Assembly (NCBI GenBank): GCA_009829735.1
Contig: CM020618.1
Span: 32,216,894-32,280,893 of the forward strand
From: Pyropia yezoensis
Lineage: Eukaryota > Rhodophyta > Bangiophyceae > Bangiales > Bangiaceae
Direction: 5' to 3'
DNA: 64,000 bases
Position 1 is the first letter of the stretch. Each line of letters begins with the position of its first letter. The translations under genes and the position numbers were made by a program. This document shows, piece after piece, positions 4,765-29,287 of this stretch. Under the pieces are notes generated by a model. That model worked only from the letters and a program-made list of their open reading frames with translations. It was not told the origin of the DNA and searched no databases.

Positions 4765-6111
4765 TTAGGCACTCGCCCGCCCGAGGGGCAGCGCGCGGAG
4801 CAGCGCGCCCGCGAGGCGCCCCTCCCCCCCTGCCTCCAGCCACGACCCGGTAACGCCCAGCCGGTAGAGCGCGCGGAGCGGCGAGAGCAGCGGCCCCGCC
4901 ACGCCCGGCGCCACCGCCGTGGTGTAGGTGCTGGCACGGACGCCGCCAACGACGATATCCCCCTGCAGCGTCTGGGGGTTGTACAACCCCGCCGAGGTGC
5001 CCGTGGAGACGGCGGTCACCACCGACGACGCGGCGTCGGCGGCCACGTCCAGCGCGTCGCCCACCCGCACCGACCGCAGCGGCGCCGCGCGGCCATTGAT
5101 GTACACCAGGTGCCCCGGCGTGGCGGTGAGCGCGTGGCCGCTGCGGGTGGTGGCGGTCACCACCGGGTGGGCGCCGCCGCTCGACCGGTGGGTAAAGGTG
5201 TAGACGGGGGAAAAGGCGGCGGCGCCGGCGCCCGCCGCGACCCGCACCCGGTCGCCGACGGCCAGGTCGGCCATCGCCACCGTCGCGCCCGTGGACAGCT
5301 CCACAGTGGCGGTGGCCGGGAAGCAGGCGGGCTCGTCCACGATCGTCCCATTGCCTCCACCCTCACCGCCGGCGCCTCCCGTAACTTCAGAGCCAGAGTA
5401 GAGGCACAGCGGGTTGTCCGCCTGCGACAGGGGGTTGGACTCGATGGTGTAGGTGATGAGGTGGCGCCCCTCGGGGAGGACCGTCTCGCCTGCAAAGGTC
5501 ACCGACTCGTTAACCTCCATGGCGGCAACAAAGGTGCGGCCTTCCACCTCGCGGTCCCCGCAGGTGCGGTCCTCCTCGGTGGCGACGCCCATGTAGACGG
5601 GCGCGCCGACGATCTTGTTAAAGATGGTGCGCACAAAGCCGGTAAACGCAGAGCCCAGCCCTTCGCTGGCAAGGTACTCCTTTAGCGGGTCGACAAAGTC
5701 GCCCGACAGGTCGTCCAGGTTCTCCAGCACCGCCGGGCTGACGAGCGCAAACTGCCCAGGCCCCGCGCACCGCGCTCCGTCCTGCACGATCGCCGTGTTG
5801 GGCACCAGCCGCACCCCAGGAGAGGCCTCGGTGGCCTCCCCCCACGTCATGGTCATTGGGCACCGGTCATCGTCCGTGTCGTTGGGGTCGGGCTCCCCCG
5901 CCTCGGGGGAGAGGTCCCCGCTGAGCAGGTCCGTCACCTTGTACGACTTGGACAGCTTCCACGTCGACTGCAGAAAGGTGCCGGTGGCCTGCCGCGACGC
6001 AACGGGGGGGAAAGCGCCCGCGGGGGTGCCGACGGTGGGGGTCCCCAGAGCAATCGCCGCCGCAACGGCAAGGAGGGCGGCGGCCACGGCAGGGCGCGGC
6101 ACGGGCGCCAT
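4765..6111 (-). CDS. Secreted protein with Hedgehog-type Hint (Hog) autoprocessing domain
   Basis: A 448-residue intronless protein. The ATG at 6111 is chosen because it opens a hydrophobic signal peptide (about residues 8-33); an upstream non-ATG extension lacks one. Residues 34-262 are an unrecognised ectodomain with scattered Cys (84, 115, 185, 236) and an NES sequon at 201. The Hint domain begins at Cys263 (PACFPATATVELSTG), carries 'ADLAVGDRV', then 'TPGHLVYI' with Thr331 and His334 matching the Hedgehog TxxH catalytic motif, and ends with 'LYNPQTLQGDIVVGGVRAS'. In Hedgehog proteins this fold cleaves before the Cys by N-S acyl shift. Sterol transfer here is unknown; the C-terminal tail is short. 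Predicted to release the N-terminal part outside the cell. Confidence 0.85.
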   Translation of the reverse strand: MAPVPRPAVAAALLAVAAAIALGTPTVGTPAGAFPPVASRQATGTFLQSTWKLSKSYKVTDLLSGDLSPEAGEPDPNDTDDDRCPMTMTWGEATEASPGVRLVPNTAIVQDGARCAGPGQFALVSPAVLENLDDLSGDFVDPLKEYLASEGLGSAFTGFVRTIFNKIVGAPVYMGVATEEDRTCGDREVEGRTFVAAMEVNESVTFAGETVLPEGRHLITYTIESNPLSQADNPLCLYSGSEVTGGAGGEGGGNGTIVDEPACFPATATVELSTGATVAMADLAVGDRVRVAAGAGAAAFSPVYTFTHRSSGGAHPVVTATTRSGHALTATPGHLVYINGRAAPLRSVRVGDALDVAADAASSVVTAVSTGTSAGLYNPQTLQGDIVVGGVRASTYTTAVAPGVAGPLLSPLRALYRLGVTGSWLEAGGEGRLAGALLRALPLGRASA

Positions 6112-6260
6112 GTTGAAGAAGCTCGGGGCGGGGGGGGGGGAGGGGCGGCGAGGATAGGCGGGTGGGGGGGAAAGGGGGGACAAAGAGGGACGGGGGAGGA
6201 AGCAGCGCTGGTCGGTAGGGCTGGGAGACACGGGCACCGTCAGCACTGCGGACGCTACGA

Positions 6261-9505: not shown

Positions 9506-9830
9506 GGCGTCGCGCTGCGGTCTGGCAGGCTGGGTGGGTGGTGAGCTTGACAGGGGCTGTGCTGCGGAGGGGCGGGGGAGGTGCGCCTGTTTCTGAGAGC
9601 GGCATGGCGATAGGGTACCGTCGTCCCCCCGCGGCGGCGCTCCACCGTCTTCGCGGGTTCCTCCCCGGTGTCACCGTCTCCGCACCACCTGCCCGTCGAC
9701 ATTCTCCCAGTAGTGGTGGCGAGGACCTTCATCCGTCATCACCGTGTTGGCCACGACGTCCCCGTTCCTGCCGAAGGCTACGCCTTCGTTTTCGCTGTTT
9801 GTGGTGTGTGAGTTCGCGCGGGCGCTCGAC

Positions 9831-10311
9831 ATGGCCACGGACGACGGTGCATCTGCCGCTCTCGCAAGCGTCGACATTTCCCTGCTCCTTGGCGACGGCG
9901 ACGTGATTCCCTCCCCTCCTGAGGATAACTCTGAAGATAACGGCGCTGGCGTAGCCGACGATTCCGACGACGACCTGCTCACGATCGCTCTTGGAAGCGC
10001 GGCCGCGGCGTCGATCGCCGCCCATTGTCGCCATGTGCTGCGGGCTGGGCCGCGCAAGCGACCCGGCTCTCTGCCTGGCAGGAGGAGCAATCGACTGCGG
10101 GACTTCAGCGTCGGCTACAGAGCCATCTTGAGAGACTACTTTGGCATTGACGGTCGGCCGCCGGTCTACTCCGACAAGGACTTTGAGCGGCGCTTCCGTG
10201 TGCCGCGCAGTGTTTTCAATTGCATCTACGAAGCCATCAAGGAAGAGCCTTTTTGGTCACGCAGGATCAACGCTACCGGACAGCCACAGGCTTATCCACT
10301 CCAGAAGCTCG
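9831..10311 (+). pseudogene. PIF/Harbinger transposase, 5' part (split by retroelement)
   Basis: N-terminal part of a PIF/Harbinger-type transposase of the Plant_tran family. The ATG at 9831 follows an upstream non-ATG extension and starts MATDDGASAALASVD. An acidic leader is followed by 'YSDKDFERRFRVPRSVF', typical of the region before the DDE domain, and then 'GQPQAYPLQKLV', where the reading frame meets the LTR of the inserted chromovirus. The 5-bp target duplication GCTCG (10307-10311 and 28206-28210) shows that the two halves were contiguous. I could not find convincing Harbinger TIRs outside the gene. Confidence 0.85.
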
Positions 10312-10674
10312 TGTAGCACAATAGGAATCCGTCGCACGTCCACTCTCAGGGAACACTCACCAAGGGGGATCGGCACCAACGTCACCGGGAGGCCAAGGTT
10401 GCTGTCCTTGGAGCGCAAGCCACGGGACCAAGATGGGAGCCCAAATGGGAGGGGTTTGTTGTTCTACCTTGGCCGGCGGTGGATTCGCCACCGGCCCCCT
10501 CGTTATAAACCCTCGGAGACACTACTAACTACCCTCCACCCCAAGATGCAAGTCCCTCTGGTCATACGTAACTTATAGATACCGTGACCAGTACGAACTA
10601 TCAAATTGAAAGTTAAGGGTTAAAAGTAGCCCCCCTGATATTAGGGTCACAACACGGACAACCATATTGCTACA
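10312..10674 (-). repeat. Chromovirus LTR (3' LTR in coding sense)
   Basis: This 363-bp LTR begins TGTAGCACAATAGG and ends ATTGCTACA in window orientation. The termini are short inverted repeats (TGTAGCA...TGCTACA). It is almost identical to 27843-28205. A TTATAAAC TATA-like motif lies within it. Confidence 0.95.
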
Positions 10675-10675
10675 T

Positions 10676-10687
10676 ATCCCCCCCTTA
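10676..10687 (-). promoter_or_regulatory. Polypurine tract of the chromovirus
   Basis: The minus strand reads AAGGGGGGGATA immediately before the LTR. This is the expected site and composition for plus-strand priming, and it confirms the minus coding sense of the element. Confidence 0.75.
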
Positions 10688-11261
10688 GATTCGGCCCGTC
10701 CTCGGGTCGAGTTGCATTCGGGGTACCGAATGTAAGTGGGTCGCGTGACCGTTTACCCGTCGGGTGGGGCTTTGCGCCCCGTCGCGACAGACACCCCTTT
10801 TCGAGGTTGTCTCAGGGGGGTGCCCCCCTTTGCGTGGTACACACACACGATCCGTTTTCCGGACCGTTAAATTCCCGATGCGGGTTGCTGTTCACGCCCC
10901 CCCTTTCCGAGGGGTGGTGCAAGCGGATCCGCCACCAGGTGCCTGGTGGTAGGGGGGCCCCTCTCGTGTGGACGATTGAGTGGGGGGCGGGGGCTGCCCG
11001 CGTTGCGTGGGGGCGGTTGGGGGTGACCCCCCTTACTTACCCCGTGTGTGGGTGTGGCCCCGTCCCGCCCAGGTGCCTGGGTGGAGCGCGGTCGTAGCCC
11101 CGTGGGGCGCGGGTCGACCCGCGTGCCTGCGGCGCTTCTCGTGGCCGTTTGTGGTCATAAGCGCGGGTGTCCGCGCTTCCCTGGCTCGTCCCGGTTATCC
11201 CACCGTACCGGGTTGTAGCCGTCGACGGCTTGTGGGCGCGGGGGACTCCGCACCCGTTATC

Positions 11262-13709
11262 ATGTCCTATCCCCAGGTGCTTGAAGAGGAGGAAGACCTC
11301 CTGATCGGGGAGGAGATGGAGGACGACGCGCCTGTCGGTCCCGACGCCGCGCGTTACGGGGTGAGCTCGTCTGACGACGACGGGCCTGCGGTGTCCGTCC
11401 GTCTGTCGGCCGGAGGACTGTCGTCCGTGTGCAGCGGCACGACGGTGCCGTCGGCCGGAGGTCAACCCGGCGGTCAACCGCGCGTGGCGGCTTCTACCCC
11501 CTCTCTGCCGGCTGCCCGGATGGGGCCTGGTGCCGGTGCCGGCTCACCGCAGGTACCTCAAGATGGTCCGCCCTGCGGCGGAGGTGGCGACCCGCAGCCG
11601 ACTCCGGCTGGTCAAGGTGGTCCGGGTGTCCGGGCGGTGACCCCTCGAGGCGGTCCCGACGTTGACGCGGGTGGTGGTGGCGGTGCGACACCCGGTGCCG
11701 TGGGTCAAGACGGTGCGGGTGTCCGCACGGCCGGGGCTCCGGCTCCGGAGGCTGTCCAAGTGCCTTCCACTTCCGAGGCGGGGGCTACGCCGACGGGTGG
11801 TGCCGGCGCCGGTACCATACCTGCGGTGCCGCGGGTGTCGAGCGGTCAAGACGCTCCTTCTCCCATGGCGGTTGACACCGGGAGTTACTCCGGGCGGGCG
11901 CCCGCCCTTCTTCTTCCTCCTCGGCCTCGTCCATCTCCGACGTCGGCCCCTCTGCCGGTGGTGCGTCCCCCGGCGCCCCCGATTCTTCCTGGTCCTGCCC
12001 GGGTTGCCCCGTTGGGTGGCGGCGTCGCCGTGGCGGCGGGTCAACCCGCCATGTCGGTGTCCGACTTGGTGGCTCGGGTTCGAGGCCTCACGGTGCAAGA
12101 GTCGATGGAGTCCGATGGGCGTATGCGGGTGGACTTCCACCTGGTGCATCCCCGTGGAGAATCCTCCCGGCGCGTCAAGGTGGACCCGTGCTGGGAGCGG
12201 GAGTTGGTGCGGCTGGTCAACCAGCCGAACGCGGTCCGGGTGGAACACCATTGGATCCTGAGTCAGCCGGACGACCGGCATGCGCAGCTCTGGCGCACCC
12301 GGGTGGGACGGGGTGAGGTCTACCTCGACCCCAACTTCGGGGTCTGCGACTTGATTGCCCCCGCGTTGCCGCGGGAGATTGACTACCCGGCTAGTGCTCG
12401 GGGGATTGCGGCGGCGGCGGAACCGGTTGCGTTCGGGGAGACGGTGAGCCGTACCGGTCGGTATCCCGACTTTGACTACTACCCGGGGGTACCCCCGTAT
12501 CTGTCGTTGACGGCTCCCTACCCGCCCATGGCGGGGTTGAAGTCGGCGTCGAGTTGGCGACGTAACCATGGTGTCATGGCGGATGCGTTCCGCACGGATA
12601 TAACGTGTGCGTTGCAGACCGGCAACGGTCGTGCTCCGGTATACACTCCCGTGCGCCCGCCGCTATGGCAGGAGGGGTGGGAACCCGCCCCTGCTTTCCG
12701 GTTTGACACCGGCTCCTGCCTCCGATACTTCGGGAGTGTGTTGGCCTCCCGGCCGGTCCACCCGTTGCAGGGTACCTTCACCCTTGAGGTTACCCTCGGG
12801 CAGGCTTCATCCTTCTTGCTGTCCGTCCGCCGGCAGGGTCGTCTGTTTCATCTTCCGACGGGTGTCCGTCGGCACATCGCGCAGTTGGGCGTGGATCTGA
12901 TAGCTGCCAAGACCGGGTTGGCCCGGGAGTTCGAAGCCCTGCTGGCTGTTCACGATGCCGTGAACTGGGCTGGGGTGTTGGCCCTTCCCCCGTACCGGGA
13001 CCCGCAGGCTGGGGCTTCCCCCTTGCCTCGTCACTCGTTGCGTGTCCGGCGTACTCAGCCGGGTGAGCCTAGTTGCCATGGGTGGGCGTCCACCGAGGCC
13101 GTTCCTGACCTGGGTATTCCCATGGTTATCCATGACCCTCTTCAGGTCCTTGCTCCGTGGTTCGGTAACCCGATGCCGGCGGCGGTTGGCCGTCGTCCCC
13201 GAGAGTGGGGCTCTGTGGGTGGGGAGCGTGAGGTGTCCCGTCGTCGGGCGGAGTACCGCCGTGGTTACGGTGGAGCCCCTTCGGTAGGGTCCTACCGGGC
13301 CTCGTATCAGGTGCCACCGGCTCCGGTGGTGGCCGTGTCGGCTCCTGTGGCTCCTCTGGCTGCGCCAGTGTCACCTCCCGCCCCTGTCCTACATGACGGG
13401 GGTCCCCGTCTCTGGTATGAAGGCGTTGACGCCCTTGTTACCCGCGCAATGCGTGGGGGTCTCTCTGTTAGCTGGGGGGATATCCCCCCAGGTGCTGCGC
13501 TGGTTGGGTCAGCGCGTTGCTTCGGTGGCGTGCTGGACCGCCTCCAGAAAGCTCTGGAGGACGTGGAGGCTGGCCGCAGCACCCTCGTCCAGCTATGCAC
13601 CGAGGTAACTCGGGTGGTCGACCGTCGTGACATTGCCGACCGGTGGAGCACGGAGGTATACGCGCTTACGCGTGAGTGGCCTCCCTCGGGCAGTGGGTCT
13701 ACCCACTGA
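11262..13709 (+). CDS. Antisense additional ORF of the chromovirus (unknown protein)
   Basis: An 815-residue open frame on the strand opposite gag-pol, between the pol end and the 3' LTR. The ATG at 11262 (MSYPQVLEEEEDLL) is preferred over an in-frame Gly/Arg-rich non-ATG extension back to 10980. Residues 1-60 are acidic. Residues 60-260 are Gly/Pro/Ala low complexity. Residues 264-815 have natural globular composition with evenly placed Trp, Tyr and Cys, ending in a predicted helical tail (LDRLQKALEDVEAG). No signal peptide, membrane segment, zinc knuckle or polymerase motif is visible, and I do not recognise a family. Long antisense ORFs in this location are known in some plant Ty3/gypsy lineages (Tat-type); relatedness is untested. 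Confidence 0.75.
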   Translation: MSYPQVLEEEEDLLIGEEMEDDAPVGPDAARYGVSSSDDDGPAVSVRLSAGGLSSVCSGTTVPSAGGQPGGQPRVAASTPSLPAARMGPGAGAGSPQVPQDGPPCGGGGDPQPTPAGQGGPGVRAVTPRGGPDVDAGGGGGATPGAVGQDGAGVRTAGAPAPEAVQVPSTSEAGATPTGGAGAGTIPAVPRVSSGQDAPSPMAVDTGSYSGRAPALLLPPRPRPSPTSAPLPVVRPPAPPILPGPARVAPLGGGVAVAAGQPAMSVSDLVARVRGLTVQESMESDGRMRVDFHLVHPRGESSRRVKVDPCWERELVRLVNQPNAVRVEHHWILSQPDDRHAQLWRTRVGRGEVYLDPNFGVCDLIAPALPREIDYPASARGIAAAAEPVAFGETVSRTGRYPDFDYYPGVPPYLSLTAPYPPMAGLKSASSWRRNHGVMADAFRTDITCALQTGNGRAPVYTPVRPPLWQEGWEPAPAFRFDTGSCLRYFGSVLASRPVHPLQGTFTLEVTLGQASSFLLSVRRQGRLFHLPTGVRRHIAQLGVDLIAAKTGLAREFEALLAVHDAVNWAGVLALPPYRDPQAGASPLPRHSLRVRRTQPGEPSCHGWASTEAVPDLGIPMVIHDPLQVLAPWFGNPMPAAVGRRPREWGSVGGEREVSRRRAEYRRGYGGAPSVGSYRASYQVPPAPVVAVSAPVAPLAAPVSPPAPVLHDGGPRLWYEGVDALVTRAMRGGLSVSWGDIPPGAALVGSARCFGGVLDRLQKALEDVEAGRSTLVQLCTEVTRVVDRRDIADRWSTEVYALTREWPPSGSGSTH

Positions 13710-14188
13710 GGAGTGCTATTGTTTGTGCGGGAGAGGGCCCCGGCAACCCTTATGGTAGCCGGGTAGTAGTGAGTATAAACTCATCCCCCTTTGGGGGCAT
13801 TGCTTGCCTCTGTTTGCTGCCCTGGGGAGCACCCCTTCTGGCTCAGTGGTGCCTTGCCTCCCGTCCAACTTCTTCCGGTTGGTTCATGCTTGGGGAGGTC
13901 ATCCTCCCTCACTTGGTGTCTTGGCTTGGGGAGGTCATCCTCCCGTGTAAGCCCCCTAGTTACTTCGATATTATCGGAGTTAGCCTTTACCTTTAAGTTA
14001 ACTTATTAAGGTTCAGGTTTTACTTAGTTACCTAAGCTTAGCTCTACTTAGTTACCTAAGCTTGGTTCGACTTAGAAACCTAAGTCTGATTTGACTTAGA
14101 AACCTAAGTCTGCCGTAACCATGTCACACCCTACTTAGTAGGTATAAGCCTCACCCCCCAACAGCGGATGTCGGTGTCGGTTGGGTTG
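13710..14188. repeat. Convergent spacer with palindromic tandem repeats
   Basis: This spacer lies between the 3' end of pol (minus) and the 3' end of the antisense ORF (plus). Four 24-bp units at about 14021-14112 each contain CTTAG-N4-CTAAG, in two pairs of slightly different sequence. A GGAGGTCATCCTCC hairpin unit occurs twice (about 13889 and 13925). This arrangement suits a bidirectional transcription end, which is inference. Confidence 0.55.
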
Positions 14189-17100
14189 TTACAGTAGGCG
14201 TCGTCGCCTCATGTAAGGCATGAGTAGTTGGCGGGGTATATTCGCCGCCTGTTCCCAGGTGGGTGAGTCGTATCCGACCCACATAACCTTGACGTACCAG
14301 GGTCCTGGTATGTCCGGGTCGGTGTGTCCGACCACGCTCTCTACTTGGTATGGAATCCCATCCGGTCCCACCGGGTCATCCGACCGGTGGGTTGTAAGAG
14401 CTTCATGTAGCAACCCAGCCGGTACCGGCTGAGGCTGTTCCGGCTTCGGAGCAGGTGTGACATCATTCATACTGATGCGTTGGATCTCCGTATCGGAGTG
14501 TAAGATAACAGAGTGGTCATCTCTGTGGAGGATCTGGTACGGTCCCTTGACCGGTTGCATAAGCTTGTTTTCTCGGAACTTCTGGTGTCTGATATAGACC
14601 CAGTCACCTGTTACCAGGGTTGCGTTGCGCACCCGTAGTCGGGCGTCGAAGTTCTTCTTATACCGAAGTTGTGTTCTGTCAAGGGCACCCTTGAGCTTAG
14701 GAATCATCCACGATAGCTTGGCCAACCAAGCTAGGTGGATGCGTTCGGCGGGTCGGCCCTTCGGTGTATCATACCGAGTGCACCTGCCGGGTGGCAGCGT
14801 CAGGTTACCGACGCCTAGTGGCACGACCCACTCCAGCGGAGCAATGTTTGTGCTCCGATGTGGCCTGGCATTGTATGCCAGGGTGAATACGGACAGAAGC
14901 CTGTCCCAAGTGTTCGTGTGCTCGGCCACGTAGCACTGTAGCATCTTTACGATGGTGCGGTTGAACCGCTCCACCTGCCCGTTGGACTGCGGGTGGTAGT
15001 CGGATGCCCGACGTGGTTCGATACCGAACATGCCCAGGACCTTAGTGCAGAATGCCGACGTAAGGTTTGCTCCGTTATCGGAGAGGAGTTGCTTCATGAC
15101 TCCGTATGCACTGATCCAGTGGTCAACCACTGCGTTCATGATCGTGTATGCCGTATCATTCGGGATGGCTGCCGCCCTTGACAGCTTAGTGAAGCGGTCA
15201 GACATGACCAGGATGTACCTGTTCCCTTCTTCCGTTACCGGGAGTGGCCCGAGTATGTCGATAGCGACTTGCTCGTTGGGCCCATCGGGTGGGAATAGCT
15301 TCATGGCAGACGCCTGCCTATGTAGACTCATGCGGTTACGCGCACAGGGGTGGCATCCCCTTACGTGGTCGACCACGTCGACGGCCATTGCTGGCCAGTA
15401 GAAGAACCTTCGCATTGCTGCGAACATACGTGAACCCCCCGGGTGTCCGGCTGTAGGGTTCTCATGTTCTCGTTCCATGACGGCTTGCCGTAAGGACACG
15501 GGAACCACGACTTGATGTCGTCCATCGGCGGGTGCCCGCCGGTATATGAGTCCGTCTTCGTTCTCGGAGAAGATGCCGGCCGTACCGGCCAGGAGGTTAG
15601 CACGATGACGTCTACAGTCATCGTCGTTGGCCTGTGCCTCTCGGAAGTCCGCGAGGGTCAACGGGCACGCAAGGTGTGCCATGGTATGGTCAACCATACC
15701 CTGGGTAGCATTACCCACCATGCACACCGGTACTACCGGGATGTCCTCGTCCACCGGGCGGGTATCCCCGCTCGGGGTGTCGAGTCGAGACAACGCGTCT
15801 CCGAGGTGGTGGGTTGACCCAGCCTTATACACCGTGCGGTAGTCGTGCTCGGCCATCTTCAGCCTCCATCGGGCTAGCCTCCCATGGCTATCGGAATCCT
15901 TGTCACCAAGGTTGAGGAGCCATCGTAGGGGTTCGTGGTCGGACCTCACGATGAACCTGGAGCCCTCCAGGTATGGACGGAGCAGTTGCACTGCCCATAT
16001 AACTCCGAGGCATTCACGCTCGGTGGCACTATAGTTCCGCTCAGCCGGGTTGAGTGTCCGGCTGAAGTACCCTACCGGACGTAGGTCCGGGATAACGTTA
16101 TCGGTACCGATCAACGTCTCTCCCTGTAACAGGGTGCATCCCACTTGTGTATCACATGCATCGACATCGATGACGAAGGTACCCCGTCTATGCGGTAACG
16201 CAAGGACGGGTGGGGCTAGTAGGGCTCGCTTCAGCGACTCGAATGCCTCCTCTTCGCTAGGCGAAGGGGGTTGGAGTACCTTGGGTAAGGTACTGCTCGT
16301 AAGAACCGTTAACGGTTTAGCTATCCGAGCGAAGTCCTTGACGAACCGTCGGTATACATTGCACATTCCCAGGAAGCTCTTGAGCTGCGTCTGGGTGTTA
16401 GGGAACCGGGCATCCCGGAGTGCCCGGGTATTGGCTTCGAGTACCCCTAGTTTACCAGGGGTTATCTGGTGGCCCAGATACTCGACCGTCTGTTGGAAGA
16501 AGGCGCACTTCTTCAGACGCAGGGTTACCCCGGCGTTCCTCAAGAGGGTGAGTACCTCGTCAACATGTTGTACATGGTCATCCATGTTACGCGAGAAGAC
16601 GATGACGTCATCGAGGTACACTAGGCAGTTACGCCACTTCACCCCAGACAGTATGATGTCGATAGCCCGCTGGAATGTAGCGGGGGCGTTGGACAATCCG
16701 AAGGGCATCCTTAGGAACTCGTACACTCCACTGTGACAGACGAATGCCGTCTTGGGGATATCCTCGTCCGCCACCGGGATCTGCCAGTATCCGGCATTGC
16801 AGTCGATGGTGGTAAACACCGTAGCCTCCCCCAGGGAGTCGATGCATTCATCCATCCTTGGTAAAGGGTATGAGTCCTTCTTGGTAACCAAGTTGAGGCG
16901 TCGATAATCGATGCAAAACCGAGGGGTTTGATCCTTCTTCGGCACAATAACGACTGGGGCACCCCATTCCGACATCGAAGGTCGGATCACCTTAGCTTCA
17001 CTCATCCTCTTCACTTCTCCATCAACGATCTCTCGTTGCATAGGTCCCGCTCGGTGCGGTTGTGAGCGGGCGGGTCGTGCGCCTGGTACCAGGTCTATAC

Positions 17101-18352
17101 GATGTTGGGTTGCGCCAATGGTCCCCAAGGCCCCGCCTGTCCACATAACGTCATGCTTTCTTAGCATCCGTCGTACCCCTTCGGCTACCGAAGGGGGAAG
17201 GTGGTCGAGGTCAGCCTCGGCCAGTGCCTTCAAGGCCTCTTGGTCCTTTGGCGGCAGGTCCGCCGGAGCCGCCGATGGGTTAGGCTTCCCGTCATCGGGT
17301 TGCTGTCGCTCGGTGGTCTCGGCGACCGCCAGTACTTCAAGTGGTTCCACTTGACCTTCCTTATCAGGGGTAAGGATATCTCCTTCGTAGAGTTCGGCAA
17401 TCCCGAGGATAGTTCCCTTCGGGAGGGTGACTGCCTTACGGCGGTAGTTCGCCATCACTAGGAGGGACGACCCTCCTGCTGGGAGGTCTATGAGACCGTT
17501 GGCCATGGTCAACCCATGGCTCTTGTACGTCCGTAGGTTGGACTGGACTCTGCAGATGCCTGCGAGGTCGCAGTTAACCGGGAGGACTGTCTCTGACAAC
17601 GGCTCAAAGCGAGTTCGCTTGGCCAACCGAAGTGTCTTCGGCTCGACGCTTGCGTACACCTCAGCCACGTTAACGTGGCTTCCTTGTAGCGTCAGGTCCC
17701 TGACGATAGCCGTGTGTCCTCGCTTCGTCCCGTCGGCTTCTTGAAGCTCGACGGTCCTCCGGCCTGGCCGGATTGCATCAACGTGAACGTTGATGAAGGT
17801 GCACCCCAGTATGCAGGGCACCGATAGCGTCTCACATACCAGGAAGTCAACTTCCGTGGTGAGATCCCCGATGGTAACCTGCAGCGACATCGCTGCGGTC
17901 GTACGAATGAGTCGACCATTCGCGTCCTTGATGGTGGGTCCCCGAGTCACTCTGACTCGTGGAAGCCACTTGTCCGGGAGGGTATCCTTCCGGATAAGGT
18001 TGGGTCCAGCCCCTGTGTCCAGTACAGGGTAGTACGATCGTGTCGACTGGGGGTCAACCCCCAGTGTGGCTGATACCTTGAAGTTCTCCAAGGTAAACAA
18101 CAAATGTCCTACACCGATATCCGGTGTAGCTCGGGCATCCTGAACAGGGCCCTTGTCTGGTTCAACGTGACGGGGCTTCCCGTCCTCTCCTCCCAACCTT
18201 GGAGGTTGGTCATCAATCCCCTGACGCCGTGTCGTCGGGGCCGGAAGGTGTACCCGGGGGTTGATGCGGCGTCGGCTCAACCGCGCTCTCCGTGGGGCTT
18301 TCCCCGCGGTACTCCGGGTGGCTTGCTTGGGTGACCCCAGCGCCCCCCGGTC
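14189..18352 (-). CDS. pol: Chromovirus pol, copy A
   Basis: The polyprotein order reads protease (LDTGAGPNLI), reverse transcriptase (RFCIDYRRLN, FTTIDCNAGYW, MPFGLSNAPATFQ, YLDD), RNase H (FVIDVDACDTQVG, RSDHEPLRWLL), integrase zinc domain (H-H-C-C ending GCHPCARNR), integrase core (AIDILGPL, LLSDNGANLTS, YHPQSNGQVERFN), and a C-terminal chromodomain (YQVESVVGHTD...VKVMWVGYDSPTWE). This is the standard Ty3/gypsy chromovirus order. The chromodomain is known in the family to guide integration to chromatin. The frame also stays open upstream into the gag region, to about 18595. Confidence 0.9.
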   Translation of the reverse strand, partial: DRGALGSPKQATRSTAGKAPRRARLSRRRINPRVHLPAPTTRRQGIDDQPPRLGGEDGKPRHVEPDKGPVQDARATPDIGVGHLLFTLENFKVSATLGVDPQSTRSYYPVLDTGAGPNLIRKDTLPDKWLPRVRVTRGPTIKDANGRLIRTTAAMSLQVTIGDLTTEVDFLVCETLSVPCILGCTFINVHVDAIRPGRRTVELQEADGTKRGHTAIVRDLTLQGSHVNVAEVYASVEPKTLRLAKRTRFEPLSETVLPVNCDLAGICRVQSNLRTYKSHGLTMANGLIDLPAGGSSLLVMANYRRKAVTLPKGTILGIAELYEGDILTPDKEGQVEPLEVLAVAETTERQQPDDGKPNPSAAPADLPPKDQEALKALAEADLDHLPPSVAEGVRRMLRKHDVMWTGGALGTIGATQHRIDLVPGARPARSQPHRAGPMQREIVDGEVKRMSEAKVIRPSMSEWGAPVVIVPKKDQTPRFCIDYRRLNLVTKKDSYPLPRMDECIDSLGEATVFTTIDCNAGYWQIPVADEDIPKTAFVCHSGVYEFLRMPFGLSNAPATFQRAIDIILSGVKWRNCLVYLDDVIVFSRNMDDHVQHVDEVLTLLRNAGVTLRLKKCAFFQQTVEYLGHQITPGKLGVLEANTRALRDARFPNTQTQLKSFLGMCNVYRRFVKDFARIAKPLTVLTSSTLPKVLQPPSPSEEEAFESLKRALLAPPVLALPHRRGTFVIDVDACDTQVGCTLLQGETLIGTDNVIPDLRPVGYFSRTLNPAERNYSATERECLGVIWAVQLLRPYLEGSRFIVRSDHEPLRWLLNLGDKDSDSHGRLARWRLKMAEHDYRTVYKAGSTHHLGDALSRLDTPSGDTRPVDEDIPVVPVCMVGNATQGMVDHTMAHLACPLTLADFREAQANDDDCRRHRANLLAGTAGIFSENEDGLIYRRAPADGRHQVVVPVSLRQAVMEREHENPTAGHPGGSRMFAAMRRFFYWPAMAVDVVDHVRGCHPCARNRMSLHRQASAMKLFPPDGPNEQVAIDILGPLPVTEEGNRYILVMSDRFTKLSRAAAIPNDTAYTIMNAVVDHWISAYGVMKQLLSDNGANLTSAFCTKVLGMFGIEPRRASDYHPQSNGQVERFNRTIVKMLQCYVAEHTNTWDRLLSVFTLAYNARPHRSTNIAPLEWVVPLGVGNLTLPPGRCTRYDTPKGRPAERIHLAWLAKLSWMIPKLKGALDRTQLRYKKNFDARLRVRNATLVTGDWVYIRHQKFRENKLMQPVKGPYQILHRDDHSVILHSDTEIQRISMNDVTPAPKPEQPQPVPAGLLHEALTTHRSDDPVGPDGIPYQVESVVGHTDPDIPGPWYVKVMWVGYDSPTWEQAANIPRQLLMPYMRRRRLL

Positions 18353-18360
18353 ATCCTTCC

Positions 18361-20544
18361 TCTTACTCGTTTCCCGCCCTTGGTAGGGTGCTGTCCGCCG
18401 GGACATCCGGCTGAGGAGGTGCCCCCTCGACGGCCAGTACTCCACCTGGAGCTGGCTGCCTACCCGGTGCGGGTCCGGGTGCTCGGGCGGGATACCCCCG
18501 GTGGATGCCTTGCGTTGCGCCGCTGCCCGCCGAGACTCCTCGGGATGAGTGGGCAGGAAGACACCCAGTGCTGGGGATCCCCACACAACATACACCCGGA
18601 CGTGCCGGTCCCCCCTTGAGGTCGCATCGGGGTAGCCCCGTAGCTACGGTTGCCTCCCTCGGGCGACCGGAGTGCCTGCTCCCTGGTAGGCCTTGGGTCC
18701 TTGGGTCAACCGGAACATGGACTCCCCCAACCGGTTGGGTCGGCCCGCAATCTGCGGGGGTGCCTCCGTGCGCACCGCCCATGTTGGCAAGGGTTGGTGA
18801 GGGTTACCCGTCACCGGGGAGTACCCCGTAGTCCGCACATACGGGACGCGCCGTCCCGTTCCTTCGTTGACCTGGAACTGGGTTCCAGCCGGGGCGATGT
18901 ACGCTACCGTACCATGTTCATCAATCACCGGCGTCGCCGGTAGCAACAGGTGGCCCTGTTGGTCGACTAGAGGGTCACCCTCACCAATAGGGGTATGTTC
19001 GGTCGCCACCAGTACTGGTGCGGCCTTACGTTCCACCTTCTCTTGCCTCGGTACCGGGGTAAGACTGGGCTTGCCTCCCTCACCCTTGGGCTTCGGGGCC
19101 AAGGCACACTCCGGGTGTAGAACCCGGTAGGCGTCCCCTAGGGACTTGCACATATGCATCAGTCGACTGAAGTTCGTCCGTGCCGTGTTGGCGCCCCGTG
19201 CGGATATCCGCACGTAGTTGGGTACTCCTGCGAACAGGATGGCCCGTAGCTCCCCTTCTCCGAGGAGCTTCCCCAGCTCGTAGTCGAGCTCTTGGATCCG
19301 GCGTCCAAACATCTCCTCATCCTCCAGGACTGGGCGGTGGCAGTGCGAAGGGCCCGATAGTGGTCCTCGCACTTGTCCTCACTGAGGTAGCTGCTCAGCA
19401 GCTCCTTCAATATCCCACGGTAATCCATGGGGGTGGCCGCGACCCTCATTCCCGGCATCGGGGATGCCTGGCGAAGAATGCCTCGCACCCGTTCATCAAC
19501 AAAGAACGGGAGGATCTCCAGAGCCAGCCCCTCGTTAACGAGCGCCTTGTCTGCGGCTGCCTTGAAGCTAGTCAAGAAGCCGATGACTGCCAACGGGCGT
19601 CCGTTCGGCCCCCCGAACATAGGGACTCCCTTCATAAGGGTCTGCATAGAGCGGATCGCCCGATGCGACGTATTACGCATCGATTCCGATACGGTGGTAG
19701 AGCGGTCCTCCAAACGATAACGTTCCGGAGTAAGAACCGACCGGAAGACCTCGTTGACGATCTCCGTGTCAGCGTCCTGGATATCCAGTCGCTTAGCCAG
19801 TTGATGAGCGAACTCATCGGACTCCATCCGCTTCAGTAGGCTCGCAGTTACCTGCGCGGTCATAGCTTCCACCACTGAAGATGGTACTTCAGGCGTCGGC
19901 ACCTCGGGAACCCGAGTTGCCTGGCCTCCTTCGTCGTGGGGGTACTGCGAGAGGGTACCTCCTCCCCCAATAACCGACTCTCCCCCGGCGTACGTATCCG
20001 CCGGGTCGTGTCCGCGGAGTCCGCTTCGGGTGCTCCGAGCGTATCGCTCCGTGTGACTCCGTTCCAACTCTGCCGACGAGTCGGATCCATACCCCACTGT
20101 GTCCGGGGGTTGTCCAGGAGTAGCAACACCGGGGTTGACCCTGGTGGACTCCGAAAGTAGTCCGGCCGGTTCGAACCGTACCGGTGTGGGAGGAACACGA
20201 CGGGGTCCCGTCGTGTGCCGTGTTGACATCAACACTGCCATTGCGTCCTCCGTCCGATCTTGACGGGCGTCGAGCCCGGAAAACCGGGCCTCGATGCGGG
20301 CCAATGATGCCATCAGGGAATCCCCTGGTGAAGGAGGCGGCGGAGTGAGGTCGGTCGACGACAGTTGAGGCGGGCCCCCGCCTCCTGCCGTCCGAGCCGT
20401 GCCAAACGTCGATCCGGCACCGGAAAGCATTGGCGTCTCAATGTTATCGATCGGGTTCCCGATCCCGGTTCCCGTAGTCACCTCCGGGGTCGGCGTCGAC
20501 GCCGATCCGTCATCTTGAACGTTCCCCGTCTCTTGGGTAGACAT
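18361..20544 (-). CDS. gag: Chromovirus gag, copy A
   Basis: Gag-type polyprotein beginning MSTQETGNVQDDG, with a Ser/Thr/Pro-rich N-terminal third, a helical capsid-like middle (DRSTTVSESMRNTSHRAIRS) and a C-terminal basic part with a zinc knuckle (C-x2-C-x4-H-x4-C). The sequence is nearly identical to copy B at 25435-27618. See the whole-element entry for integrity. Confidence 0.8.
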
Positions 20545-20768
20545 GGTCACAATCAGTCAACCGACGTATCAATCACCACGAACAAGAGAGCGAGGGGGTA
20601 GATTGGGGAGAGTACAGTAGATCACAGTCAAAGGTAAAAACTCAACACAATCGATCAGGTCGCAACACCACGAGTACAAGAAAAGGACCGGATCCCTATC
20701 CGTGTGCCAGGGCCGAAGACGGCGTCACCACAAGGGTGACGGAAACCCGTCCCCTGCTGCTCCACCAA

Positions 20769-20800
20769 TGTAGCACAATAGGAATCCGTCGCACGTCCAC
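20769..20800 (-). repeat. Start of a middle chromovirus LTR, cut by the gap
   Basis: The first 32 bp match the LTR start (TGTAGCACAATAGG) directly before the Ns. The adjacent leader and primer-site sequence (20551-20768) repeats that at 27625-27842. The hidden remainder would include the rest of this LTR. Confidence 0.85.
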
Positions 20801-21300
20801 NNNNNNNNNNNNNNNNNNNNNNNNNNNNNNNNNNNNNNNNNNNNNNNNNNNNNNNNNNNNNNNNNNNNNNNNNNNNNNNNNNNNNNNNNNNNNNNNNNNN
20901 NNNNNNNNNNNNNNNNNNNNNNNNNNNNNNNNNNNNNNNNNNNNNNNNNNNNNNNNNNNNNNNNNNNNNNNNNNNNNNNNNNNNNNNNNNNNNNNNNNNN
21001 NNNNNNNNNNNNNNNNNNNNNNNNNNNNNNNNNNNNNNNNNNNNNNNNNNNNNNNNNNNNNNNNNNNNNNNNNNNNNNNNNNNNNNNNNNNNNNNNNNNN
21101 NNNNNNNNNNNNNNNNNNNNNNNNNNNNNNNNNNNNNNNNNNNNNNNNNNNNNNNNNNNNNNNNNNNNNNNNNNNNNNNNNNNNNNNNNNNNNNNNNNNN
21201 NNNNNNNNNNNNNNNNNNNNNNNNNNNNNNNNNNNNNNNNNNNNNNNNNNNNNNNNNNNNNNNNNNNNNNNNNNNNNNNNNNNNNNNNNNNNNNNNNNNN
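20801..21300. other. Assembly gap of exactly 500 N
   Basis: A run of exactly 500 Ns, which usually marks a gap of unknown size. By comparison with copy A, the missing sequence should hold the rest of an LTR, possibly an antisense-ORF segment like 10675-14188, and the extreme 3' end of pol copy B. Confidence 0.95.
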
Positions 21301-24300
21301 TTGGCGGGGTATATTCGCCGCCTGTTCCCAGGTGGGTGAGTCGTATCCGACCCACATAACCTTGACGTACCAGGTCCTGGTATGTCCGGGTCGGTGTGTC
21401 CGACCACGCTCTCTACTTGGTATGGAATCCCATCCGGTCCCACCGGGTCATCCGACCGGTGGGTTGTAAGAGCTTCATGTAGCAACCCAGCCGGTACCGG
21501 CTGAGGCTGTTCCGGCTTCGGAGCAGGTGTGACATCATTCATACTGATGCGTTGGATCTCCGTATCGGAGTGTAAGATAACAGAGTGGTCATCTCTGTGG
21601 AGGATCTGGTACGGTCCCTTGACCGGTTGCATAAGCTTGTTTTCTCGGAACTTCTGGTGTCTGATATAGACCCAGTCACCTGTTACCAGGGTTGCGTTGC
21701 GCACCCGTAGTCGGGCGTCGAAGTTCTTCTTATACCGAAGTTGTGTTCTGTCAAGGGCACCCTTGAGCTTAGGAATCATCCACGATAGCTTGGCCAACCA
21801 AGCTAGGTGGATGCGTTCGGCGGGTCGGCCCTTCGGTGTATCATACCGAGTGCACCTGCCGGGTGGCAGCGTCAGGTTACCGACGCCTAGTGGCACGACC
21901 CACTCCAGCGGAGCAATGTTTGTGCTCCGATGTGGCCTGGCATTGTATGCCAGGGTGAATACGGACAGAAGCCTGTCCCAAGTGTTCGTGTGCTCGGCCA
22001 CGTAGCACTGTAGCATCTTTACGATGGTGCGGTTGAACCGCTCCACCTGCCCGTTGGACTGCGGGTGGTAGTCGGATGCCCGACGTGGTTCGATACCGAA
22101 CATGCCCAGGACCTTAGTGCAGAATGCCGACGTAAGGTTTGCTCCGTTATCGGAGAGGAGTTGCTTCATGACTCCGTATGCACTGATCCAGTGGTCAACC
22201 ACTGCGTTCATGATCGTGTATGCCGTATCATTCGGGATGGCTGCCGCCCTTGACAGCTTAGTGAAGCGGTCAGACATGACCAGGATGTACCTGTTCCCTT
22301 CTTCCGTTACCGGGAGTGGCCCGAGTATGTCGATAGCGACTTGCTCGTTGGGCCCATCGGGTGGGAATAGCTTCATGGCAGACGCCTGCCTATGTAGACT
22401 CATGCGGTTACGCGCACAGGGGTGGCATCCCCTTACGTGGTCGACCACGTCGACGGCCATTGCTGGCCAGTAGAAGAACCTTCGCATTGCTGCGAACATA
22501 CGTGAACCCCCGGGTGTCCGGCTGTAGGGTTCTCATGTTCTCGTTCCATGACGGCTTGCCGTAAGGACACGGGAACCACGACTTGATGTCGTCCATCGGC
22601 GGGTGCCCGCCGGTATATGAGTCCGTCTTCGTTCTCGGAGAAGATGCCGGCCGTACCGGCCAGGAGGTTAGCACGATGACGTCTACAGTCATCGTCGTTG
22701 GCCTGTGCCTCTCGGAAGTCCGCGAGGGTCAACGGGCACGCAAGGTGTGCCATGGTATGGTCAACCATACCCTGGGTAGCATTACCCACCATGCACACCG
22801 GTACTACCGGGATGTCCTCGTCCACCGGGCGGGTATCCCCGCTCGGGGTGTCGAGTCGAGACAACGCGTCTCCGAGGTGGTGGGTTGACCCAGCCTTATA
22901 CACCGTGCGGTAGTCGTGCTCGGCCATCTTCAGCCTCCATCGGGCTAGCCTCCCATGGCTATCGGAATCCTTGTCACCAAGGTTGAGGAGCCATCGTAGG
23001 GGTTCGTGGTCGGACCTCACGATGAACCTGGAGCCCTCCAGGTATGGACGGAGCAGTTGCACTGCCCATATAACTCCGAGGCATTCACGCTCGGTGGCAC
23101 TATAGTTCCGCTCAGCCGGGTTGAGTGTCCGGCTGAAGTACCCTACCGGACGTAGGTCCGGGATAACGTTATCGGTACCGATCAACGTCTCTCCCTGTAA
23201 CAGGGTGCATCCCACTTGTGTATCACATGCATCGACATCGATGACGAAGGTACCCCGTCTATGCGGTAACGCAAGGACGGGTGGGGCTAGTAGGGCTCGC
23301 TTCAGCGACTCGAATGCCTCCTCTTCGCTAGGCGAAGGGGGTTGGAGTACCTTGGGTAAGGTACTGCTCGTAAGAACCGTTAACGGTTTAGCTATCCGAG
23401 CGAAGTCCTTGACGAACCGTCGGTATACATTGCACATTCCCAGGAAGCTCTTGAGCTGCGTCTGGGTGTTAGGGAACCGGGCATCCCGGAGTGCCCGGGT
23501 ATTGGCTTCGAGTACCCCTAGTTTACCAGGGGTTATCTGGTGGCCCAGATACTCGACCGTCTGTTGGAAGAAGGCGCACTTCTTCAGACGCAGGGTTACC
23601 CCGGCGTTCCTCAAGAGGGTGAGTACCTCGTCAACATGTTGTACATGGTCATCCATGTTACGCGAGAAGACGATGACGTCATCGAGGTACACTAGGCAGT
23701 TACGCCACTTCACCCCAGACAGTATGATGTCGATAGCCCGCTGGAATGTAGCGGGGGCGTTGGACAATCCGAAGGGCATCCTTAGGAACTCGTACACTCC
23801 ACTGTGACAGACGAATGCCGTCTTGGGGATATCCTCGTCCGCCACCGGGATCTGCCAGTATCCGGCATTGCAGTCGATGGTGGTAAACACCGTAGCCTCC
23901 CCCAGGGAGTCGATGCATTCATCCATCCTTGGTAAAGGGTATGAGTCCTTCTTGGTAACCAAGTTGAGGCGTCGATAATCGATGCAAAACCGAGGGGTTT
24001 GATCCTTCTTCGGCACAATAACGACTGGGGCACCCCATTCCGACATCGAAGGTCGGATCACCTTAGCTTCACTCATCCTCTTCACTTCTCCATCAACGAT
24101 CTCTCGTTGCATAGGTCCCGCTCGGTGCGGTTGTGAGCGGGCGGGTCGTGCGCCTGGTACCAGGTCTATACGATGTTGGGTTGCGCCAATGGTCCCCAAG
24201 GCCCCGCCTGTCCACATAACGTCATGCTTTCTTAGCATCCGTCGTACCCCTTCGGCTACCGAAGGGGGAAGGTGGTCGAGGTCAGCCTCGGCCAGTGCCT

Positions 24301-25426
24301 TCAAGGCCTCTTGGTCCTTTGGCGGCAGGTCCGCCGGAGCCGCCGATGGGTTAGGCTTCCCGTCATCGGGTTGCTGTCGCTCGGTGGTCTCGGCGACCGC
24401 CAGTACTTCAAGTGGTTCCACTTGACCTTCCTTATCAGGGGTAAGGATATCTCCTTCGTAGAGTTCGGCAATCCCGAGGATAGTTCCCTTCGGGAGGGTG
24501 ACTGCCTTACGGCGGTAGTTCGCCATCACTAGGAGGGACGACCCTCCTGCTGGGAGGTCTATGAGACCGTTGGCCATGGTCAACCCATGGCTCTTGTACG
24601 TCCGTAGGTTGGACTGGACTCTGCAGATGCCTGCGAGGTCGCAGTTAACCGGGAGGACTGTCTCTGACAACGGCTCAAAGCGAGTTCGCTTGGCCAACCG
24701 AAGTGTCTTCGGCTCGACGCTTGCGTACACCTCAGCCACGTTAACGTGGCTTCCTTGTAGCGTCAGGTCCCTGACGATAGCCGTGTGTCCTCGCTTCGTC
24801 CCGTCGGCTTCTTGAAGCTCGACGGTCCTCCGGCCTGGCCGGATTGCATCAACGTGAACGTTGATGAAGGTGCACCCCAGTATGCAGGGCACCGATAGCG
24901 TCTCACATACCAGGAAGTCAACTTCCGTGGTGAGATCCCCGATGGTAACCTGCAGCGACATCGCTGCGGTCGTACGAATGAGTCGACCATTCGCGTCCTT
25001 GATGGTGGGTCCCCGAGTCACTCTGACTCGTGGAAGCCACTTGTCCGGGAGGGTATCCTTCCGGATAAGGTTGGGTCCAGCCCCTGTGTCCAGTACAGGG
25101 TAGTACGATCGTGTCGACTGGGGGTCAACCCCCAGTGTGGCTGATACCTTGAAGTTCTCCAAGGTAAACAACAAATGTCCTACACCGATATCCGGTGTAG
25201 CTCGGGCATCCTGAACAGGGCCCTTGTCTGGTTCAACGTGACGGGGCTTCCCGTCCTCTCCTCCCAACCTTGGAGGTTGGTCATCAATCCCCTGACGCCG
25301 TGTCGTCGGGGCCGGAAGGTGTACCCGGGGGTTGATGCGGCGTCGGCTCAACCGCGCTCTCCGTGGGGCTTTCCCCGCGGTACTCCGGGGTGGCTTGCTT
25401 GGGTGACCCCAGCGCCCCCCGGTCAT
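21301..25426 (-). CDS. pol: Chromovirus pol, copy B (partial at gap)
   Basis: Same domain order and near-identical sequence as copy A: protease, YLDD reverse transcriptase, RNase H, integrase and the start of the chromodomain region, which reaches the gap. Differences from copy A are few and mostly in homopolymer length, a pattern compatible with sequencing error or very recent duplication. Confidence 0.85.
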
Positions 25427-25434
25427 CCTTCCTC

Positions 25435-27618: not shown

Positions 27619-27825
27619 GGTCACAATCAGTCAACCGACGTATCAATCACCACGAACAAGAGAGCGAGGGGGTAGATTGGGGAGAGTACAGTAGATCACA
27701 GTCAAAGGTAAAAACTCAACACAATCGATCAGGTCGCAACACCACGAGTACAAGAAAAGGACCGGATCCCTATCCGTGTGCCAGGGCCGAAGACGGCGTC
27801 ACCACAAGGGTGACGGAAACCCGTC

Positions 27826-27841
27826 CCCTGCTGCTCCACCA
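27826..27841 (-). promoter_or_regulatory. Primer-binding site of the chromovirus
   Basis: Two bases inside the right LTR the minus strand reads TGGTGGAGCAGCAGG, complementary to a tRNA 3' end finishing in CCACCA. The same sequence recurs beside the middle LTR (about 20752-20767). I cannot assign the tRNA identity. Confidence 0.6.
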
Positions 27842-27842
27842 A

Positions 27843-28205
27843 TGTAGCACAATAGGAATCCGTCGCACGTCCACTCTCAGGGAACACTCACCAAGGGGGA
27901 TCGGCACCAACGTCACCGGGAGGCCAAGGTTGCTGTCCTTGGAGCGCAAGCCACGGGACCAAGATGGGAGCCCAAATGGGAGGGGTTTGTTGTTCTACCT
28001 TGGCCGGCGGTGGATTCGCCACCGGCCCCCTCGTTATAAACCCTCGGAGACACTACTAACTACCCTCCACCCCAAGATGCAAGTCCCTCTGGTCATACGT
28101 AACTTATAGATACCGTGACCAGTACGAACTATCAAATTGAAAGTTAAGGGTTAGAAGTAGCCCCCCTGATATTAGGGTCACAATACGGACAACCATATTG
28201 CTACA
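27843..28205 (-). repeat. Chromovirus LTR (5' LTR in coding sense)
   Basis: A 363-bp LTR differing at about two positions from 10312-10674, followed on the right by the GCTCG target duplication. The minus strand carries a TTTATAAC TATA-like motif near 28033-28042, upstream of the gag leader. Confidence 0.95.
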
Positions 28206-29287
28206 GCTCGTCGCTGCCTTTCGAGTGCTGGCATATGGCGAGACCTATGACCGGTCGGACGAGTACACGAGGCTGGCGCGTTCGACTGTCGCTGTCGCCA
28301 CCACCAAGCTCGTCGATTTCATCGTGCACGAGTATGCGCCCATGTATCTGCGACCCCCAAACGATGCGGAGCTGGCTCACATTCTTCATCGTAACGCGCA
28401 GCGCGGCATGCCTGGCTGCATTGGCAGCATCGACTGCTCACATTGGTCCTGGCGGCAGTGCCCGCGGGGCCAGGCCGGCCAGTACCAGGACTACAAAGGC
28501 AGGCGGTCAGTGACCATGGAGACTGTCTGTGACGAGGACCTTTATATTTGGCATTTCTTCATTGGGTGCGCTGGGAGCAACAACGACCTGAACGTGCTCC
28601 GTCAGTCGCCTCTGTACCACAGCATCATGAGCGGGACGTGGCCTCCGGACCGGTTTCAGTACGTTGTCAACGGGCGGTCGCGCAGATTGCTGTACTACCT
28701 CGCCGACGGCATTTACCCCCAATACGCTGTTTTTGCTCGTCCCTACGGGACGGCGATCACGCCACAACAGCGGACGTATAAACGGCTACAGGAAGCGCTG
28801 CGGAAGGACGTAGAACGTGTCTTTGCTGTGATGACGAACCGCTTCCACATTGCCTTGTACCCAGCCCGTTTCTCCACTGTGACCCGACTTATTGCGACGG
28901 GCCGAGCGATCGCATTTTTGCATAATATGGTAATTCGTGAGCGTCGGGACGGGTTTCTTTGGCGAAGGCGCATTGCAGCTGTGGGTGGTGTCCCCGTTGC
29001 CGTTCCACTCGGGACACCTGGCACTGCAGTGGGGGCAGGCAGTGCTGCTGCTGGGAATGTCGGCCCAGCTGGTGGTGTGGCTGTGGTTGGGTGCGGCGCT
29101 GACGGAGAGCGTGGTGATGCTGGCGGTGTTGGTGTCGCCAATGGGGAAGGAGGCCCACTTGGTAGTGTGGCTGCTGCTGGCGCTGCTGGCACTGCTGCTG
29201 GGGCTGGCGGCCCAGCTGGTGGTCTCGCTGGAGCTGGGGAGGCTGCTGCCGGAGAGACAGTGGGCGGTCAAAGTCGCCTGCCCGTAG
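28206..29287 (+). pseudogene. PIF/Harbinger transposase, 3' part
   Basis: Continues the transposase interrupted at 10311. It contains 'FRVLAYGETYDRSDEY', the catalytic block 'GCIGSIDCSHW', then 'FFIGCAGSNNDLNVL' and 'RKDVERVFAVM', which supply the two Asp and the Glu of the Plant_tran/Harbinger DDE domain. The frame remains open past 29287 to a stop near 29445. After the DDE domain comes an unusual Gly/Ala/Val-rich tail of about 90-150 residues, not typical of the family, where the conserved gene may already have ended. No lesion other than the retroelement insertion is obvious, so the disruption is recent. Confidence 0.88.

Follow-up and report, generated by a model that had tools for sequence, protein, structure and literature searches.

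An antisense open reading frame under protein-level selection in chromovirus-type Ty3/gypsy retrotransposons of the red alga Pyropia yezoensis

A stretch of 64,000 nucleotides of the Pyropia yezoensis genome (contig CM020618.1, positions 32,216,894 to 32,280,893 of assembly GCA_009829735.1; hereafter the window) contains a Ty3/gypsy retrotransposon on its minus strand, and within it an open reading frame (ORF) of 815 codons that runs antisense to gag-pol. Our results indicate, with a probability of roughly 0.7, that this ORF is a standing accessory gene of a chromovirus-type Ty3/gypsy clade of red algae, and that its product acts in trans. The frame is very probably a gene for an accessory protein kept by selection, because its place and orientation are fixed, its copies are mostly intact, purifying selection is specific to this frame, relatives occur in another Pyropia species and a second element family also carries an antisense ORF, remotely similar and in the corresponding position. 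That the ORF is an old module of the red-algal chromovirus clade is likely too, if somewhat less firmly so.

A preliminary description of the window, made from its letters, had reported an 815-codon frame opposite to gag-pol between pol and the 3′ long terminal repeat (LTR). The analysis confirmed this placement: the frame lies between the end of pol (14189) and the 3′ LTR, in a region laid out as follows.

10675 to 11261, plus strand: spacer of 587 bp upstream of the antisense ORF, present in 30 of 30 loci (L001–L030, the window's own included)
11262 to 13709, plus strand: antisense ORF, 815 amino acids, ATG at 11262, stop at 13707–13709, stop-free upstream to 10980
11262 to 11351, plus strand: acidic N-terminal peptide, net charge −11 in 30 amino acids, the start of a Gly/Pro/Ala-rich region (amino acids 1–254)
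12282 to 13181, plus strand: conserved core, amino acids 341–640, by identity to MMPV_009242
13179 to 13286, plus strand: Arg-rich linker, amino acids 640–675; the most basic 30-residue stretches begin at residues 659–660
13710 to 14188: spacer separating the antisense ORF from pol, the two genes converging here with their 3′ ends

Copies were searched for in 107,475,971 bases of the genome. The copy lists were ranked by score, so that the counts are lower bounds biased toward intact copies, and stops were counted within the matched part only. The antisense protein was found in at least 55 places (the window's included) at 99% identity or more over all 815 residues; 50 of these had no stop and five had one. 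The 30 best of the 55, picked by protein score, comprise the window's own copy (L001) and 29 others (L002–L030). All 30 showed LTR, spacer, ORF, spacer and pol in one order, and two of them (L023 and L024) carried one stop each. In 29 of the 30 copies L031–L060, the C-terminal part of the ORF adjoined the end of pol; in L041, a piece of LTR follows within pol. With two protein relatives as queries, P0013 matched at least 126 places (nine with stops in the matched part) and P0012 at least 130 (three with stops). Broken or cut copies are not rare.

A sample independent of the ORF was taken from five copies at spaced ranks of the 86 listed pol matches, each followed to the place where the ORF was predicted. 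The ORF was present in antisense at that place in all five, 98.8–99.4% identical over 663 bases (two copies with small gaps). The 16 distinct differences fell 1, 1 and 14 times at codon positions 1, 2 and 3, which is the bias that the preliminary description had proposed to look for. Its idea of a lineage-specific module is thus supported by the 29 other best-scoring copies, by the five copies picked through pol and by the selection specific to the frame. The opposite outcome, that other copies lack the ORF or show it degraded without selection, is contradicted by the 50 stop-free places among 55 and by the five pol-picked copies, yet 33 of the 126 places in the P0013 list lie in frames shorter than 700 codons. 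A subfamily with three in-frame TGA codons was set aside, as in the four copies fetched these codons coincide with the natural end of the ORF or lie beyond it. At one other locus (G000 C2:9880067-9892399), the antisense ORF is repeated four times in tandem at a spacing of 3489 bp, and three of the four matches carry one TAG.

The ratio of nonsynonymous to synonymous substitution (dN/dS) was estimated with the Nei–Gojobori method (NG86) over amino acids 255–815, against the window, for 29 of the copies L031–L060; L033 lacked a long enough match. In the ORF frame, dN/dS was 0.09–0.40 (median 0.23), and this frame had the lowest value of all six in 27 of the 29 copies. The two exceptions were L045 and L048, where frame −2, which shares the wobble positions of the ORF, was lower in the third decimal. 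At the end of pol, the pol frame, which is on the other strand, gave a dN/dS of 0.05–0.44 (median 0.19) and had the lowest value in 28 of 29; the exception was L035 (0.44 vs. 0.26 in frame +2), where differences are few. The ORF frame and the pol frame are therefore the most constrained on opposite strands, and the strand of constraint switches between the two genes. These pairs are not independent, because several loci are near-duplicates (L051/L052, L053/L054, and L057/L058). In the most diverged copies (L031, L032, and L034; dS 0.87–1.07), dN/dS was 0.29, 0.28, and 0.25 for the ORF and 0.09, 0.05, and 0.12 for pol, so that constraint on the ORF is weaker than on pol in these pairs. The dS values of the ORF and of pol were closely correlated (Spearman 0.91, n = 29).

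These results leave practically no weight for a chance open frame in GC-rich DNA or for an env-like gene read on the wrong strand. Chance could be suspected from the Gly/Pro/Ala-rich N-terminal 254 amino acids and from the many long GC-driven frames in the window, but in 400 Markov resamples of 10675–14188 at each of three orders the longest open run was 462 codons and none reached 815, and dN/dS is well under 1 both in the ORF frame and in the shadow frame that shares its wobble positions. The remaining five frames of the same stretch carry 7 to 24 stops. On the gag-pol strand the longest stop-free run is 372 codons; an env-like ORF was ruled out by the antisense orientation and by a best 19-residue hydropathy of 1.37, with no membrane-like segment in the protein. 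Wobble composition was dropped as proof of coding, as the A/T strand bias runs on into the non-coding spacers.

Protein searches with the antisense ORF returned five and then 12 relatives. Eight of the 12 are hypothetical proteins of Pyropia vietnamensis, 37–53% identical over 34–98% of the query. P0012 (97%) and P0013 (99%) have matches in this same genome and are therefore not independent species evidence; P0002 and P0003, 95% identical to the query, may stem from this genome too. Identity to MMPV_009242 was 83/140 in amino acids 341–480, 100/159 in 481–640 and 35/88 in 716–815, and identity to P0003 was 72/134 in amino acids 31–200, 132/140 in 341–480 and 108/111 within 481–640. By these comparisons, conservation of the predicted protein is concentrated in its core. 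The N-terminal third behaves differently in L038, L047, L049, and L059, where it was matched in part with DNA 66–75% identical, against 92–96% for the rest; this pattern points to exchange between subfamilies, which would make the ORF a mosaic. In L055 as well, the N-terminal third is strongly diverged or unmatched and the rest is 92–96% identical. The P. vietnamensis ORFs could not be linked to pol through adjoining locus tags, as no Pyropia-named pol occurs among the 120 of 219 pol matches listed.

The statement of the preliminary description that the C-terminal two thirds of the protein has no recognizable domain was borne out, for the whole protein, in every collection searched. Against Pfam nothing passed the cut-off (best DUF6214, E 0.09, or E 0.014 in two of 13 aligned members), and there was no sequence match in PDB, PHROGs or NCBIfam, nor any relative in viral, phage or prokaryote collections at the sensitivity used. 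Recombinase and nuclease motifs picked by eye were unconvincing.

The GC content of the ORF (0.678) is nearer to that of the flanks (0.66–0.71) than to that of pol (0.583), as might be expected if a host gene or a second mobile element had been captured and the ORF were a passenger. We regard this as very improbable, since the copies of the element themselves show selection on the ORF and a second family has an ORF of remote similarity. No pair of terminal inverted repeats flanks the ORF, for which reason a nested DNA transposon as its carrier was also rejected, and no named homologue outside Pyropia appeared among the 12 relatives, a single-copy host gene not having been searched for at lower scores.

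The host element has the features of Ty3/gypsy: reverse transcriptase (RT) and ribonuclease H (RNase H) ahead of integrase, LTR ends TG..CA and a short target-site duplication (TSD). The best PDB match of its pol is Ty3 Gag-Pol (7q5b), and pol had no relatives in viral contigs. A pol tree was made from 48 of the 120 listed relatives (219 matches in all), without named reference elements. The window pol falls in a clade of 36 rows. A precomputed chromodomain is present in 25 of the other 35; of the six rows nearest to the window pol (SH-aLRT, the Shimodaira–Hasegawa-like approximate likelihood ratio test, 99), two have one and four do not. In the window pol itself, a Chromo match of 16 bits (cut-off 25.1) lies at the expected position in integrase, and related pols gave E 9.6e-4 in P0014, which is under the cut-off, and E 6.8e-8 in P0016. 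By its position in the tree, the window pol can be placed among chromodomain elements, that is, as a putative chromovirus.

P0014 lies within the six-row group next to the window pol, to which it is 42% identical. This pol matches at least 35 places of this same genome at 99%. In the 3 kb past the end of pol of one copy (L070), there is an antisense ORF of 456 amino acids (ATG at 944, stop at 2312–2314). This ORF was found in at least 93 places, none of the 93 with a stop and mostly in 724-codon frames, and among the matches listed 15 of the 35 second-family pol matches had an antisense ORF match 600–800 bp from pol (690 or 691 by hand). Between two copies, L070 and L071, 5 differences fall at first, 7 at second and 37 at third codon positions. 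The N-terminus of the second protein has a charge of −5.

The two antisense proteins were compared with hhalign, using a 13-row alignment of the window ORF family as the query. The L071 frame was aligned collinearly with a score of 50.8 (E 6.8e-6, probability 85%, 204 columns, 27% identity), and L070 scored 42.3 in the same set-up. Top scores in the controls were 23.8 for 150 shuffles, 20.8 for one reversed sequence, 30.2 for 48 other window frames and 27.1 for 120 pol proteins. In tblastn searches against L070, MMPV_009242 gave E 0.016 over 422 amino acids and P0013 gave E 8e-4 over 57. We read the ORFs of the two families as probable remote homologues and as an inherited module, although it is possible that the ORF was exchanged between the two families. 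The module, proposed at the outset for one lineage, would thus stand but extend wider, since a second family has an ORF of remote similarity in the corresponding position. A match of the second-family ORF to GLYR1 (E 0.48) was treated as chance. In the upstream part of the second-family copy L070, positions 137–605 are 97% identical to window 34204–34671.

As for mechanism, the ORF is very probably inherited together with pol and maintained by selection on the protein. Transcription of the ORF would begin at a promoter within or adjacent to the 3′ LTR and run antisense to the genomic RNA. The LTR contains a TATAAA oriented toward the ORF; it is expected by chance in 8% of LTR Markov resamples and is a weak sign of an antisense promoter. 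The product would be mostly soluble, with an acidic and probably disordered N-terminus, the Arg-rich linker, a core of about 300 amino acids and no membrane segment. Its acidic start, Gly/Pro/Ala-rich N-terminus, Arg-rich linker and lack of a membrane segment are more in keeping with a soluble and possibly nuclear protein than with an envelope. The protein may act in trans on DNA, RNA or chromatin of the element that encodes it, either regulating expression or silencing or assisting nuclear steps of transposition.

A regulatory role linked to nucleic acids is suggested tentatively, by analogy with the antisense proteins of Grande (gene23), Retand and HTLV. A shade more speculative is the fuller proposal that the antisense gene was present in the common ancestor of a red-algal chromovirus clade and that selection has since maintained it, as a regulator acting in trans or a counter-silencing factor, down to about 42% pol identity. 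If true, chromoviruses would have their own counterpart of deltaretroviral antisense regulators, independently evolved and forming a new protein family.

The constraint on the ORF, not far below that on pol, its apparent co-inheritance with pol and the absence of a recognized regulatory domain (Pfam, NCBIfam) would also suit an antisense-encoded structural or replication cofactor, working in the particle or the integration complex and not as a regulator. This we consider unlikely, given that the antisense position sets the ORF apart from Gag-Pol expression, that the N-terminus of the protein is long and of low complexity, and that no fold supports such a role. The antisense RNA and not the protein might be what matters, pairing with genomic RNA and tuning silencing: the pol and ORF genes are convergent, and antisense transcripts are discussed in this sense for some elements in the accessible portion of one source (PMC7264820). 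It is improbable as the whole explanation, for it is the amino acids of this frame that are constrained; the RNA could have a role alongside the protein, which would leave the frame unexplained.

Several observations weigh against a standing, trans-acting accessory gene as the explanation. In the P0013 list, 93 of the 126 places lie in frames of at least 700 codons and the others in shorter ones. Of the ORF, L033 retains just 364 bases, from the C-terminal part, and it shows no pol match in the fetched stretch, L043 is without the N-terminal part, and L034 has three stops; the N-terminal third is poorly conserved as well as mosaic between subfamilies. A singleton test on L001–L030 (48 of 90 synonymous vs. 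28.6 expected) was left out of the main argument because the copies were picked by protein score, which tilts toward synonymous changes. The chromodomain of P0014 is under the Pfam cut-off. The link between the families rests on a profile comparison at 27% identity: hhalign against L070 in a separate set-up gave probabilities of only 42% and 36%, and the best tblastn value of the window protein against L070 was E 0.95. The regulatory role is an analogy, and neither a domain nor a fold supports it, two AlphaFold models having a predicted local distance difference test (pLDDT) score of 33 and 31.

Extra ORFs in plant elements were reportedly studied by Steinbauerova and co-workers. Antisense ORFs between pol and the 3′ LTR are described, in the accessible portions of the sources, in the plant elements Grande (gene23), RIRE2 and Retand (aORF-3R or eORF-3′R); like the ORF of the window, they share place and orientation, are long, occur in most copies and have no known function (PMC7264820, PMC11963269). 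By position, between pol and the 3′ LTR, in antisense and in the copies examined, our ORF falls in the aORF-3R class. In Retand, 97% of clusters contain the TRP28 antisense protein, which is thus lineage-wide (PMC11963269). Retand differs in belonging to a non-chromovirus lineage of flowering plants, with another host and another protein family: Transposase_28 (TRP28) had no Pfam match at E up to 1 in the ORF, its 13 aligned members or the second-family ORF. The preliminary description had mentioned antisense ORFs in plant elements of the Tat type; this is correct and incomplete, as Boty of the fungus Botrytis is also named (PMC7264820, in part). The antisense gene of Boty-like elements of Botrytis is called brtn (PMC8365987, in part), an additional antisense gene in a non-plant LTR retrotransposon that is likened here by description only.

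Red-algal and plant chromoviruses share with the element of the window the order of pol, the tree position and, by a match under the Pfam cut-off, a putative chromodomain-like end of integrase; the available portion of PMC6317226 does not name an antisense gene as one of their features. That portion reports extra ORFs in both orientations, which in Ty3/gypsy fall into 314 similarity groups, and no conserved domain shared by the majority of elements within a lineage, to which Retand TRP28 is a known exception (PMC11963269, as excerpted). No retrotransposon chromodomain was found in the Porphyra yezoensis data of 2012, according to the accessible part of PMC3350952. HBZ of human T-cell leukemia virus (HTLV) is likewise an antisense retroviral protein, regulatory and with an antisense promoter in the 3′ LTR (PMC7264820, PMC11963269, in the portions available), whereas its virus infects another host group; the likeness is by description only. 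We found no report on an antisense gene in red-algal chromoviruses in the literature covered, in part as excerpts, most subscription journals lying outside the search. The present case offers one antisense protein family with measured purifying selection and a probable remote relative in another, distantly related family of this genome. For red algae this is an additional kind of retrotransposon accessory protein, and the question of function can now be tested directly in a cultivated red alga.

The element occupies the minus strand as one insertion of about 10.8 kb by coordinates, composed as follows in addition to the region given above.

10307 to 10311: TSD GCTCG, left copy, 5 bp
10312 to 10674, minus strand: 3′ LTR, 363 bp, ends TGTAGCA...TGCTACA, repeat with 27843–28205
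10504 to 10509, plus strand: TATAAA in the LTR, oriented toward the antisense ORF
14189 to 18595, minus strand: pol, 1468 amino acids, with protease, RT, RNase H and integrase (Pfam)
14228 to 14350, minus strand: chromodomain-like C-terminus of integrase (Chromo E 0.011, under the Pfam cut-off)
20801 to 21300: scaffold gap, 500 N
25435 to 27624, minus strand: gag by position, 729 amino acids, open on this side of the gap
27843 to 28205, minus strand: 5′ LTR, repeat with 10312–10674
28206 to 28210: TSD GCTCG, right copy, 5 bp

The recent insertion previously noted was upheld by the two LTRs, identical at 361 of 363 sites (two differences), and by the 5-bp TSD. On the minus strand next to the LTR, within 10675–11261, a purine-rich tract judged by eye is a candidate polypurine tract. 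The gag frame gave no Pfam match. Its second display across the gap, at 18644–20550, is frame-shifted; pol is open on one side of the gap and gag on the other. Positions 14228–20800 and 21301–27874 are the same stretch, with no mismatches and seven single-base gaps, and both abut the 500 N. Besides the two LTRs, LTR sequence occurs only as a 32-base piece at the edge of the gap. Two tandem elements were ruled out by the zero mismatches and seven single-base gaps, by both copies abutting the gap and by the one TSD pair. The double gag-pol is a scaffold artefact, in which overlapping contigs flank the gap and 6.57 kb is shown twice. Several other pol matches in the genome are paired 5–15 kb apart and may be the same artefact.

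The element sits inside a transposase-like frame on the plus strand (9744–10311 and 28206–29445), which we take to be Harbinger-like. The right flank of this split frame matches Pfam Plant_tran (E 8.5e-57) and DDE_Tnp_4, and the flanks of the element, once joined, form an uninterrupted frame of 600 codons. About four 24-bp palindromic repeats (CTTAG..ACCTAAG) lie at 14021–14112, in the spacer on which pol and the antisense ORF converge.

Elsewhere in the window, pieces of a Tc1/mariner-like transposase lie at 1052–2315 on the plus strand, with HTH_Tnp_Tc3_2 and a below-cut-off DDE_3 in two separate frames. A 493-amino acid ORF at 4765–6246 on the minus strand has a C-terminal Hint module (E 2.3e-25). 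At 52249–56206 and 57022–60096 we found a glycoside hydrolase family 36 (GH36) melibiase-like gene in two adjoining frames and a gene with an amidase domain.

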